DNA from: a virus
Length of the DNA: 64,000 nucleotides
Direction: 5' to 3' (one strand)
IMG/VR virus record: IMGVR_UViG_3300022848_000013
Location: 16,835-80,834 of that record
Below, in pieces: positions 2,805-11,811 of this stretch. Position 1 is the first letter of the stretch; the number at the start of each line of letters is the position of its first letter. A program made the translations under genes and the position numbers. The notes below the pieces were generated by a model. That model had not been told where the DNA came from. It saw only the letters and a list, made by a program, of their open reading frames with translations, and searched no databases.

Positions 2805-4244
2805 TTAAATTGTTACTTGATTGTATCGTTCTGCATTTATGGTTTCCAACATGACATCCAGCGGAGAGATAGTGTTACCCGAAAGCAACGTCTTCAAGAT
2901 AGATGGCGAACACCCGCTTACGAGACATGTTCCCTTATCATCCTTGGTGATCGGTGACTGACTGTTTCGGGCATTGACATTCCAGAACACCAAGTTTGGT
3001 TGCACATATCCTGCTGCTTCATACTTGAGACGGGTAGCCTCATAGTTTGTAACAGACTGTCCACGACAAGCCATATCGAATTCCATATCCGAAACAATGT
3101 AGAGGGTATCAGGCATATCTTCCTGCGGAACATCATTCCGCATTCCTGTAGTAAGAATCAGATCGAACGTTGCTTGCAAGTTAGTAGACATATCCCAATC
3201 CGCCCTTTCAAGGTTCTGAACCTTCTCTCGAATATTGTTTCCAACAACAGATTGAAGTGTTGGGGTTTCGGAGAACGTGAAGAACTTGTTGGCAAAGGCA
3301 CCCTTGTTCTTTTCGGCAAAATAAATTGCCAAAGAGATAGAGACTGCCATTGGTCTGCCAGTCATGCTACCGCTCACATCCGCAATAACGATTCCGTTGT
3401 GCTTGTTCTCTCCGATATAATCAGGTAGAGCATCCCAAAGGACATCCAAAGTATCACTCTTATCACATCGATTCAGAATCTTTTCAACAATTTCGTAAGG
3501 ATACAATGTAGATGCATTGATCTTAGTTTCACCCTTCTTAACTGCCGCCAAAAAGTTTTCATAACGTTCCTTATCGTGCTTACGGAAGGCATCTTTATAG
3601 GTCAAAGATGCCTTCGAAGGAACATGAGAATATTCGATCTGGTCCCACTTGTTTGCACAAAGAAGAGGCTCAACAACCTTTGTCTTCTCACGCATATGAG
3701 AAAGAGTTTGACGGTATTCCTTAGATGATAGTCCAAGGTGCTTACGCAAAATCGTAGCAAGTCGTCTAGTTGACTTAGAAGAAGTATTTTCCGAACAAGA
3801 CCATTTGAAGATTAGAGAGTTCGTCTCGAACCCCTTGTTCCACTCATTACCCCAAAATTCTAGAGCCTTGTCCCAAGACTTGGTTCCTTCCAAGAAAAAA
3901 AGATCATCATATCGACCATAGAACACGATGTTTTCTAGATTATTTACGACAATAGTTGGATACTCATTGCCCAACCACTTGATGATTGTTCGGAAAGTCT
4001 TACGCTCGCCCATTCCCCCTCGGGCGTCACGGAAATAAAACATGGTTTTTAGAGCCAGTTCTTGATCTTCGGCAAATGCCTTAGAAAACAAGGAAATAAC
4101 ATCTTCATCAGAACGAGAACGCATAGCACCACCTAGACCAAAGAAATCCAATAGATTACTCAAAGTAGACTTGTGAGTAAAGGCACCATTCTCGGTTAGA
4201 GTGAAATTTTGGTTCTTTTCGATAGAGTTGATTAGTGAGTTCAT
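2805..4244 (-). CDS. DUF2828/TROVE-like protein with C-terminal vWA domain (Ro60-like architecture)
   Basis: 479 aa from ATG 4244 (MNSLINSIEK). A longer frame to 4319 would include a repeated leader element and is rejected. The N-terminal half has family hallmarks: NGAFTH, LLDFFGLGGAMR, FRDARGGMGERKTFR, and NASTLYPYEIV before the second domain. The C-terminal part is a von Willebrand A domain with an intact MIDAS start, DVSGSM, and YIVSDMEFD. The layout, a helical repeat ring plus vWA, matches the DUF2828 family and resembles Ro60/Rsr proteins, which bind Y RNAs and misfolded RNAs. RNA binding here is inferred, not shown. Its leader carries two copies of an element also found at the head of a tRNA-array segment (12173-12236). 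Confidence 0.8.
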   Translation of the reverse strand: MNSLINSIEKNQNFTLTENGAFTHKSTLSNLLDFFGLGGAMRSRSDEDVISLFSKAFAEDQELALKTMFYFRDARGGMGERKTFRTIIKWLGNEYPTIVVNNLENIVFYGRYDDLFFLEGTKSWDKALEFWGNEWNKGFETNSLIFKWSCSENTSSKSTRRLATILRKHLGLSSKEYRQTLSHMREKTKVVEPLLCANKWDQIEYSHVPSKASLTYKDAFRKHDKERYENFLAAVKKGETKINASTLYPYEIVEKILNRCDKSDTLDVLWDALPDYIGENKHNGIVIADVSGSMTGRPMAVSISLAIYFAEKNKGAFANKFFTFSETPTLQSVVGNNIREKVQNLERADWDMSTNLQATFDLILTTGMRNDVPQEDMPDTLYIVSDMEFDMACRGQSVTNYEATRLKYEAAGYVQPNLVFWNVNARNSQSPITKDDKGTCLVSGCSPSILKTLLSGNTISPLDVMLETINAERYNQVTI

Positions 4245-4444: not shown

Positions 4445-5176
4445 TTATTTAATCTGTTTAAATTCATCGATATCTAAGCACCGATAAACTCTATTATTAT
4501 GAGAATCGAAAACGTAATGACTTTGATGATAGTGACCGAAATAATGAGACTGACATTCTGATAAATCAGACATGTGCTGAACCAGTTCCATTTCGTGAAT
4601 CAATTCACCTAATAGATCACCACCCTGCATGGCCTCTACACCGTGATAGTGCATAACCATAGAGTTTGTCTCGGCTTTAGATAATCCACAGTTTGTAGGG
4701 CCAATGTGCGTCATTAAGATATCAACCTTCTCGATTCGTTCAGGTTCAAAGACCACTTCTTCGTTTTCCCACCAAGATTTACCAATAATTCGTTCAGATC
4801 GGTCGATAGAGATACCACCACCGATTATCTGAATACGTTTGTCATTAATATCGTATATTGAATAATCCGGTGAAAAATAAACTCTTTCACCAAATTCTCG
4901 ATTAGCCCAATGATTTTGATGGAAAAATATGGGATTACTATGGTTCCCTCGACAAATTATTAAATAAGAATTGATTTTGGTCATATATTCATATAATTTA
5001 CGTATTAGATGTCTTTCTTTAATGGGATGGTGGAACCCTTCACCCGCATCACCACAATGTAGAAAGACACAATCTTGAAAGTCTTCTGGGATTTTTTTTT
5101 CGAAAAGATTAACCAGTTTTAATGAATGTGTATCTCCGATAAGAATAATCGATATATTTTTGAAAGTCGTTCTCAT
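4445..5176 (-). CDS. calcineurin-like metallophosphoesterase
   Basis: 243 aa with all core motifs of the binuclear metallophosphoesterase fold in order: GDTHS (residues 14-18), CGDAGEG, RGNHSNP, MTHIGP and GHYHQS near the C-terminus. Such phage enzymes act on nucleotides, nucleic-acid ends or phosphoproteins; the substrate is not predictable here. A second, unrelated-length member is at 21297-21980. Soluble, no signal peptide. The start lies in a TATATAATATG-like context without a Shine-Dalgarno. Confidence 0.85.
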   Translation of the reverse strand: MRTTFKNISIILIGDTHSLKLVNLFEKKIPEDFQDCVFLHCGDAGEGFHHPIKERHLIRKLYEYMTKINSYLIICRGNHSNPIFFHQNHWANREFGERVYFSPDYSIYDINDKRIQIIGGGISIDRSERIIGKSWWENEEVVFEPERIEKVDILMTHIGPTNCGLSKAETNSMVMHYHGVEAMQGGDLLGELIHEMELVQHMSDLSECQSHYFGHYHQSHYVFDSHNNRVYRCLDIDEFKQIK

Positions 5177-5320: not shown

Positions 5321-5947
5321 TTAAAACTTCAAAAACATGTTCCAATCCACACAAATTGCCGATTTGATCAAAATATGTGCTGGAACTGGTTTCGGTTTAT
5401 TAAGTTGGTATTTAGGAATAATACCAAACTCTTCGGGTGTTCTATCAGCCTTTTTTCTATTTAATTCTGGGGACGAAATAGCCAAATTCTCCCAAGTGTT
5501 TTCACCACCACGACTTCTTGGGTGCATATGCTCTATGGTAGCACTTTTATAAGGAACCACGTCACCCGTCCATATACACTTTCCTCCATAATGGTTATAG
5601 ATATTTCTCTTTGTTGCTCGGAACGTCTTGACGGGCATTTTATTATAATTAGAACCCACAATGATAACCGTAGGAAGTCTGACATCCAAAGAAACCGTTC
5701 GGATAGAATCTTCATCGAATTCTCTAGGTGATAAGGTAGCCCATTCTTTCCAAGACAAAGGAATAACCTCGGTTGGGGCAGAAAAATCAAAATTTCCTTG
5801 ATCATCTTTCATATATTCGATCTTTAGTGCCTTTTTAGGGTATTTAGATGAGTTCATATCTTCAAGTGCATCCTTTACCGTTGTATGTCCTATTGGTTTC
5901 CAAGATTTGTTCAATACTAAGACATGTATGTTTAATGCTTTGCTCAT
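5321..5947 (-). CDS. HNH endonuclease
   Basis: 208 aa. The C-terminal half has an HNH core: GGKCIWTG (one Cys of a zinc site), ATIEHMHPRSRGGENTWENL (His and Asn of the beta-beta-alpha-metal site), then LNRKKADR. The N-terminal half (VLVLNKSWKPIGHTTVKDAL) is the conserved leader of a widespread bacterial and phage HNH family. It may be a homing nuclease or a nuclease acting on host or competing DNA. It stands alone with its own leader and diverges from the PAS-protein gene at 6004. Confidence 0.8.
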   Translation of the reverse strand: MSKALNIHVLVLNKSWKPIGHTTVKDALEDMNSSKYPKKALKIEYMKDDQGNFDFSAPTEVIPLSWKEWATLSPREFDEDSIRTVSLDVRLPTVIIVGSNYNKMPVKTFRATKRNIYNHYGGKCIWTGDVVPYKSATIEHMHPRSRGGENTWENLAISSPELNRKKADRTPEEFGIIPKYQLNKPKPVPAHILIKSAICVDWNMFLKF

Positions 5948-11064: not shown

Positions 11065-11072
11065 AAATTGTA

Positions 11073-11140
11073 TGCTGCGAACCTTGGACTCGAACCAAGA
11101 CTATACCTGATTCGGGGTGACTACCATTCCCTAGTTCGAA
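11073..11140 (-). tRNA. tRNA-like RNA, anticodon not assignable
   Basis: T arm CTTGG-TTCGAGT-CCAAG and a near-complete acceptor (TTCGAAC/GTTCGCA) are clear, and a D-like arm GGG-CCC contains GG. The segment that should hold the anticodon arm is about 4 nt too short and has no regular stem. Probably a shortened or degraded tRNA. Confidence 0.4.
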
Positions 11141-11148
11141 TTAAAAAA

Positions 11149-11412
11149 TTTTTCTTGTTATGTGCATATTACGCCAAAAGAGAATCAGACCTTACCATTT
11201 ACGGGGTATCCTTTTACTTCCACGGTTAGACGAAATCCAACATGAACGTCAATATCTAACTTTGACACGCTCATGTTATCACAGACACCCATAAAATATG
11301 GACCGTTGATATCGGAGACTCGCGTTTCGCTCTACTCTTTAAAGGTAATTGTCATAGACAATCAGAATTTATCATTCGTTGCTGCTTCTAAGCCAACCTC
11401 TAACAAGAAAAA
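11149..11412 (-). ncRNA. structured RNA containing a 23S rRNA GTPase-centre-like (L11-binding) segment
   Basis: About 264 nt whose ends are perfectly complementary (TTTTTCTTGTTA and TAACAAGAAAAA, 12 bp). Near the 5' end is GTTGGCTTAGAAGCAGC (11381-11397), identical to E. coli 23S nucleotides 1059-1075 and including A1067. After an insertion with two small hairpins comes TTTAAAGAGT (11334-11343), as in helix 44 of many bacteria. A hairpin GAG-UAGA-GCG-AAA-CGC-GAGU-CUC follows, whose internal loop has tandem A-G mismatches. It then has other hairpins, including AACATGA/TCATGTT. It starts right after the CCA of tRNA-Ser(TGA), so RNase-P/Z-type processing could release it. The 23S match is recalled from memory; function is inferred. 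Confidence 0.75.
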
Positions 11413-11500
11413 TGGCGGATCATAATCGCATCGAACGATTAGCCTTTTAGAGCTACTACTATTTTCAAAATAGTTTGAGGAGCCTACCTCAGTATGATCC
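11413..11500 (-). tRNA. tRNA-Ser(TGA)
   Basis: Acceptor GGATCAT/ATGATCC, anticodon stem ACTAT/ATAGT with loop TTTGAAA, long variable arm TAGCTCTAAAAGGCTA, T loop TTCGATG, G73 and CCA. Class II serine tRNA directly abutting the 23S-like RNA. Confidence 0.9.
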
Positions 11501-11542
11501 ATATAATTTTTTCGGGCGGTTAAAGCCCCATTTAAATTATAT
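11501..11542 (-). ncRNA. 42-nt hairpin RNA between array elements
   Basis: ATATAATTT and AAATTATAT pair end to end; inside GGGGC and GCCC pair. It is the spacer between two larger elements and may be a processing signal. Confidence 0.4.
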
Positions 11543-11546
11543 GAAA

Positions 11547-11721
11547 GAGAGAACCAAGGTGTCTTTCGCGTAACACTCCACGACTAGTTCTTGCTGTATC
11601 AAAGCCCTGTTTTCACACATGGCTTGGTTAGGATCATCCTTCGATCAATTCAATGATCTACTGTGGTATGACCCAGACCCCGATATACTATATGCAGGGT
11701 ATTTAGTTTTTTGGTTCTCTC
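11547..11721 (-). ncRNA. structured RNA with 11-bp complementary ends
   Basis: GAGAGAACCAA at one end and TTGGTTCTCTC at the other are perfectly complementary over 175 nt. The interior has short hairpins and no tRNA fold. It does not resemble a known RNA that I can name. Confidence 0.55.
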
Positions 11722-11739
11722 AATCAAATTCAAAATTAA

Positions 11740-11811
11740 TTCTTCGATAGGGTTAGAACCTACATCTCTTGTATACTATCACAAGGCTCTGGGGCATTGA
11801 GCTACGAAGAA
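11740..11811 (-). tRNA. tRNA-like RNA with 8-nt anticodon loop
   Basis: Acceptor TTCTTCG/CGAAGAA is perfect; D stem GCTC/GAGC, but the D loop AATGCCCCA lacks the GG pair; anticodon stem CTTGT/ACAAG encloses eight bases (GATAGTAT); T loop TTCTAAC is altered. CCA is not encoded. Decoding specificity cannot be assigned. Confidence 0.5.

Follow-up and report, generated by a model that had tools for sequence, protein, structure and literature searches.

The 58-nt L11-binding domain of bacterial 23S rRNA, the GTPase-associated center (GAC), has long served, in isolated form, as a model for studies of RNA folding and of antibiotics. To our knowledge, no RNA outside ribosomal RNA carries this domain. 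GOLLD and ROOL are structured phage RNAs often located near tRNA islands, and the available part of the source describes no rRNA domain in them (PMC12286853). The stable RNAs C and D of phage T4 are annotated beside its tRNA cluster. Leaders of ribosomal protein mRNAs, for instance the uL1 site on the L11-L1 mRNA, contain a ribosomal protein site copied outside rRNA, according to the part of the source available (PMC10931766). Such leaders lie in ribosomal protein mRNAs, whereas the RNA reported here stands among tRNAs or other phage genes. Phage pseudo-ToxI acts by mimicry of a host RNA, as far as the part of the source available describes it (PMC3475682); it mimics an antitoxin RNA, while the present RNA copies rRNA. 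Many large bacterial viruses carry a GAC-bearing RNA, often among tRNA genes, and our analysis suggests that it is a decoy capturing a host ribosomal protein. It shares with the GAC of 23S rRNA both hairpins, the U1060-A1088 interaction, the 1082-1086 pair and a closing helix. In contrast to the ribosomal domain, it lies outside 23S rRNA, is split by inserts, has a closing helix of free sequence, carries A1101 and has a looser tip.

Architecture of the RNA unit

The window, the 64,000-nt stretch of DNA analyzed, belongs to a virus record of 80,834 bases with T4-like genes. Its portal gene matches Portal_T4 (E 8.9e-100), and a major head protein, a head maturation protease and a baseplate wedge protein are also encoded. 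ARAGORN called 22 tRNA genes between 8.1 and 18.0 kb, all on the minus strand. One of them, tRNA-Ser(TGA) (11413-11500, minus strand), is located directly upstream of the RNA unit (11149-11412, minus strand), which starts at the base following the encoded CCA (11413-11415), as first reported. A tRNA with unassigned anticodon was found at 11739-11811 (minus strand) by ARAGORN and Rfam. Downstream of the unit, at about 11070-11140 (minus strand), a stretch looks tRNA-like by eye, with the T-arm GGTTCGAGTCC; it has no ARAGORN call and no Rfam support.

The initial annotation described a 23S hairpin in a phage RNA inside the tRNA array. The L11-binding domain is indeed present there; rather than one hairpin alone, it comprises the complete domain, which inserts divide. 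The 17-mer GTTGGCTTAGAAGCAGC (11381-11397, minus strand) and the second 23S match TTTAAAGAGT (11334-11343, minus strand) were located as claimed. A chance origin had been called very unlikely, and by arithmetic the 17-mer is expected about 1e-5 times in 64 kb on both strands. Both halves of the domain lie on the minus strand of 11149-11412 and correspond to E. coli positions 1051-1075, 1079-1090 and 1091-1108. The closing helix P1 (11401-11412 with 11149-11160, minus strand) is perfect as described, with 12 of 12 standard pairs; position 1055 lies at 11401 and 1104 at 11160, and its outer part replaces helix 42. The 5′ strand, the loop and part of the 3′ strand of helix 43 follow at 11381-11399 (1057-1075), with A1067 at 11389. 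A second insert of 35 nt (11346-11380) replaces 1076-1078, and some other members have an insert at the same site. The rest of helix 43, the 1082-1086 pair, A1088 (at 11336) and the 5′ strand of helix 44 occupy 11334-11345 (1079-1090). The main insert of 158 nt (11176-11333) lies inside helix 44, between 1090 and a family-specific G before 1091. The helix 44 hairpin GGCGTAATATGCAC (11162-11175, minus strand; 1091-1102) had been overlooked; it includes the preceding family-specific G, A1095 at 11170 and an extra U at 11166 in the loop.

The features of the L11-binding fold are found together in the window: the helix 43 hairpin with U1060 and the conserved loop, the U1060-A1088 and 1082-1086 interactions, and the helix 44 hairpin GC-GUAAYA-GC with A1095, here with one extra U. 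Forty of 55 compared positions equal the E. coli/Salmonella 23S rRNA. Of the 42 positions that do not vary among 26 distinct genuine 23S sequences, 41 are comparable and 35 are kept. The six differing positions (1054, 1055, 1101, 1104, 1105 and 1108) are all helical, and in the window each is part of a standard pair. The longest ATG/GTG/TTG frame overlapping the unit on the RNA strand has 46 aa. Folding of the window RNA gave an energy slightly better than that of shuffled sequences, but the difference is weak (z -1.47). The unit is not a 23S gene, as inserts interrupt the domain and the rest of 23S rRNA is missing, Rfam finding no LSU rRNA in the window.

Within the main insert, P4 (11330-11333 with 11179-11182) forms the base helix; it is indicated by pairs and changes and is also family-wide. 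The region 11225-11277 contains a helix (11267-11277 with 11239-11249) and a possible pseudoknot (11255-11260 with 11225-11230), one of whose six pairs is compensatory. In three members (L019, L022, L028) the lower helix of this region is partly broken. A recurrent insert motif, GATACCCCGTAAATGGTAAGGTC, lies at 11188-11210 (minus strand); it may be the hairpin with an A-G rich internal loop noted in the initial annotation.

Recurrence and covariation

Scans of IMG/VR contigs found the 17-mer in at least 119 stretches and the 3′ motif TTTGGCGTAAYAGCACACY in at least 120. In the 213 loci examined, the two motifs lay within 500 nt of each other at 167 places (138 distinct). The split form was seen at 164 of these places, near-identical contigs included, versus three true 23S rRNAs (L101, L106, L208). 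The record of L208 (MZ092003.1, Paenibacillus phage Pd_22F) has an uninterrupted true 23S GAC and thus holds rRNA sequence. In the same 213 loci, 23 further matches to the 5′ motif lacked the 3′ motif; several are truncated where the locus stops, several are chance-like, and two (L088, L121) copy the window sequence with its extra U. A looser pass over 229 loci gave 196 places, 162 distinct and 140 after thinning of similar inserts. A 40-nt query matched 49 phage records, many of them with plain 23S rRNA.

An anchor alignment comprised 107 of the 140 thinned members; it left out one tandem and 32 members whose linker differed or which had a second insert. U1060-A1088 is present in 107/107. Positions 1082-1086 form standard pairs in 101/107 (TA 56, CG 31, AT 14); in the 23S sample the pair is TA in 26/26, hence invariant there and covarying in the phages. 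Covariation among the 107 members was further found in the closing helix P1, in 1057-1081 and 1058-1080 and in P4 at the insert base, whose first three pairs form in 107/107, 105/107 and 95/107. A second alignment, A1, contained 40 members, eight of them whole and the other 32 trimmed of their insert, and excluded the window and 23S rRNA. Its paired cells amounted to 91.5% versus 69.9% after shuffling (0/500), its double-change cells to 215 versus 75 (0/500; slid structures or partners reached at most 64) and its covariation score to 0.541 versus 0.138 (0/500). Pairs changed on both sides were hardly more frequent than in shuffled alignments (13 versus 11.2; 38/500), and further pair types were no more frequent (43 versus 45.5; 467/500).

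The covariance model R1 was built from 40 members without the window or 23S rRNA. With filters off, it detected the window copy significantly (11152-11409, minus strand; 31 bits, E 4.5e-6; next match 11.3 bits), as the initial annotation had anticipated for a model of the domain. In the whole-record R1 search (G000), no more than two weak fragments of the window element were recovered (E 0.06 and 0.28). In the Salmonella 23S gene, R1 found only the GAC, with 54.9 bits. Whole-record searches with R1 confirmed the RNA in nine named phages (E<=4.9e-14), namely XacN1, pf16, Aeromonas 4_4572, Astolliot, UNO-G1W1, GAP32, CBB, pEa_SNUABM_12 and Milchi, so that the expected conservation in other phages was borne out. 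The RNA is annotated in none of these nine records; UNO-G1W1 and Milchi have a hypothetical protein annotated on the opposite strand at the RNA locus. KVP40 gave an R1 match only at E 0.04, and short matches only were seen in Kaldavass, BF, more SNUABM phages, XbC2 and XaC1. R1 found no match in the whole records of T4, Atu_ph07 and phage G. The T4 RNAs C and D were rejected as relatives, since T4 has no R1 match and their sequence is not GAC-like.

Across 84,980 genomes of bacteria and archaea, 16 stretches carried the 3′ motif. Thirteen of these 16 loci match R1 at E<=2e-10, five of which (L217, L220, L225, L226, L227) belonged to the R1 training set. The R1 match in L229, a Propionibacterium MAG, stands away from the searched 3′ motif; it is short (3172-3267, 96 nt; 48.3 bits). 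Seven genomes were checked for a terminase-family match on the RNA-bearing contig; four have one, in one case a weak match (E 9e-6). The 909,734-base 'plasmid' record of Pseudomonas sp. FeN3W (L212) carries the RNA among 12 called tRNAs (R1 match, E 8e-13) and may be a phage-like element. A 378,387-base contig binned as Clostridia (L217) has the RNA within an array of 25 called tRNAs together with a weak terminase match, and may be a huge phage that was binned with bacteria. Possible degenerate second copies were seen beside the main RNA in L206 (2659-2982; 18.1 bits) and L213 (2660-2983; 14.4 bits). L188 has matches at 5537-5785 and 5077-5153 (minus strand; 41.2 and 23.3 bits), possibly including a degenerate second copy.

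Rfam 15 has no family for this RNA. A search of 11100-11550 with its models, those for LSU rRNA, GOLLD and ROOL included, gave nothing at E<=10; the same search also missed tRNA-Ser, and weak relatives could escape it. A match to the LSU model, as an RNA copying the 23S domain might have given, was thus not obtained for the window copy. At curated scores only tRNAs were found in the window and nine other loci. On the XacN1 copy the LSU model gave a sub-threshold match at the GAC (19.2 bits versus a cut-off of 50; E 4e-4). A literature search covering titles and the starts of abstracts, with preprints and most subscription papers outside its scope, found no such RNA described. The main text of the XacN1 paper, as far as available, contains none of the terms rRNA, Rfam, ncRNA and noncoding (PMC5852040).

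Divergence from the ribosomal domain

The yardstick for 23S rRNA consisted of 26 distinct sequences, mainly from two phyla (61 loci, 31 distinct, five dropped for linker length). As a control for search bias, each half was judged on members retrieved through the other half: 63 members retrieved with the 3′ motif served for the 5′ half, and 69 retrieved with the 17-mer for the 3′ half. Both motifs still had to match loosely in these members (up to three and four mismatches). Positions 1059, 1060, 1064, 1066, 1071, 1072 and 1074 are kept in 63/63, and A1095 in 68/69. The tip is looser: A1067 is kept in 44/63, G1068 in 49/63, A1070 in 47/63 and A1096 in 50/69, that is in 70-78%, versus 26/26 for each in 23S rRNA. 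U1061A occurs in 24/63 phage members versus 0/26 in 23S rRNA. This exchange stabilizes the isolated domain. A1101, which pairs with U1090, is present in 105/107 phage members versus 0/26. The held fold, the looser tip, U1061A and A1101 together indicate an RNA that has drifted towards a free-standing form.

The insert domain in helix 44 varies widely across members, with about 60-380 nt between the two search motifs. CACCCCGTAA is present in 12/139 inserts, and CACCCCGTAAATGGTAAGG or CACCCCGGAAACGGTAAGG recurs near the 3′ end of many, including the window (11188-11210, minus strand). The insert may add a second function. A mimic of the 23S sarcin-ricin loop in the insert was considered and dropped. 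AGTACGAGAGGAA occurs with 0-1 mismatches in 3/139 inserts (L087, L196 and L025, with 0, 0 and 1 mismatch) and with two in one, and shuffled sets contain 0.9 at up to two mismatches. The same letters also result from a bulged-G motif that is common and has a GAGA loop, and sarcin-ricin-loop mimicry is therefore not claimed. No 23S 9-mer was found in more than 4/139 inserts.

tRNA context

In the examined flanks of 139 members, 788/788 ARAGORN tRNAs were on the strand of the RNA, and the strand calling was checked. At least one tRNA was called in 98/139 members, and 41/139 had none in the examined stretch. The RNA ends within 30 nt of a tRNA in 48/139 members versus 117/5369 random placements in the same loci. 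The XacN1 copy is located between a 2′-5′ RNA ligase and a hypothetical gene. Release of the RNA by tRNA processing is likely. In the loci checked the neighbors are not ribosomal protein genes, which argues against a ribosomal protein leader. The L11 gene (PF00298) is absent from 15 records (11 with the RNA, plus T4, KVP40, Atu_ph07 and G) and present in 14/14 control genomes, so that a uL11 partner would be that of the host. The ribosomal L12 family was detected in 1/11 records, as a 28-residue match in a 195-aa frame of UNO-G1W1 (96300-96383; L323), a phage that has the RNA.

Proposed function and alternatives

It is proposed, with about an even chance of being right, that a stand-alone RNA, probably originating from tRNA operons, folds as the GAC and captures the host protein uL11. 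The RNA would share transcription and processing with the tRNA operon and would come free beside tRNA ends. It refolds E. coli 1051-1108 on its own scaffold, in which a closing helix of free sequence replaces helix 42 and helix 44 houses a variable domain. Free host uL11 would be bound mainly via its C-terminal RNA-binding domain and would be kept from new 50S subunits, or parked on the phage RNA. The likely payoff would be a weaker (p)ppGpp response, because ribosomes without uL11 do not activate RelA, and an altered handling of factors in infected cells. Loss of L11 or of its N-terminus from the ribosome leaves RelA inactive, according to the part of the source available (PMC4974054). Least certain in the proposal is what capture would do to RelA and factors; as host ribosomes already contain uL11, the effect of capture may be small.

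The best surviving alternative, rather unlikely in our estimate, is a ribonucleoprotein scaffold, in which the GAC fold is borrowed for a phage protein or for uL11 in a structural role and the insert carries the actual activity. The inserts are long, diverse and structured, and large phage RNAs near tRNAs with unexplained roles exist in GOLLD and ROOL, as the available part of the source indicates (PMC12286853). Against it, the GAC is the shared and most conserved part, while the inserts differ widely.

A decoy role towards RelA, towards translational GTPases or towards a toxin or enzyme of the host that attacks the GAC, with A1067 and A1095 at the tip as false target, has a low probability. 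We know of no defense that targets the GAC. The retention of A1095, and of the tip in most members, leaves room for a factor or toxin partner, and phage RNA mimicry in counter-defense has a precedent in pseudo-ToxI, judging from the part of the source available (PMC3475682). The initial annotation had likewise suggested mimicry of the factor-binding face. The four looser positions, 1067, 1068, 1070 and 1096, argue against this; a loose tip with held fold positions fits the capture of uL11 better than titration of GTPases.

Assembly of the RNA into ribosomes in trans, or in place of their GAC, also raised initially, would account for the complete domain and is highly improbable. From the architecture, the closing helix is free in sequence, nothing of helix 42 is kept, which makes uL10 binding and assembly unlikely, and the inserts lie inside helix 44. 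True 23S rRNA does occur in virus records. Contaminating or chimeric 23S reads, named at the outset as a possible source, are refuted for the family by the predominance of split places, the same split architecture in isolate phage genomes, the compensatory changes and A1101, which the 23S sample lacks, and the phage genes in the window.

Implications

Capture of uL11 is therefore retained as the preferred reading. More tentatively, and with less confidence than the capture itself, the widespread phage RNA class may be a uL11 sponge that draws the protein off new ribosomes and shifts infected cells to a RelA-blind, relaxed translation. If uL11 is bound, phages would have a purely RNA-based route to change ribosome composition and the stringent response, and one unexplained RNA of phage tRNA arrays would gain a testable role. 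The isolated GAC would gain a free-standing relative from nature that comes in many variants. With a curated model, the GAC-bearing RNA would be annotated in phages already sequenced.
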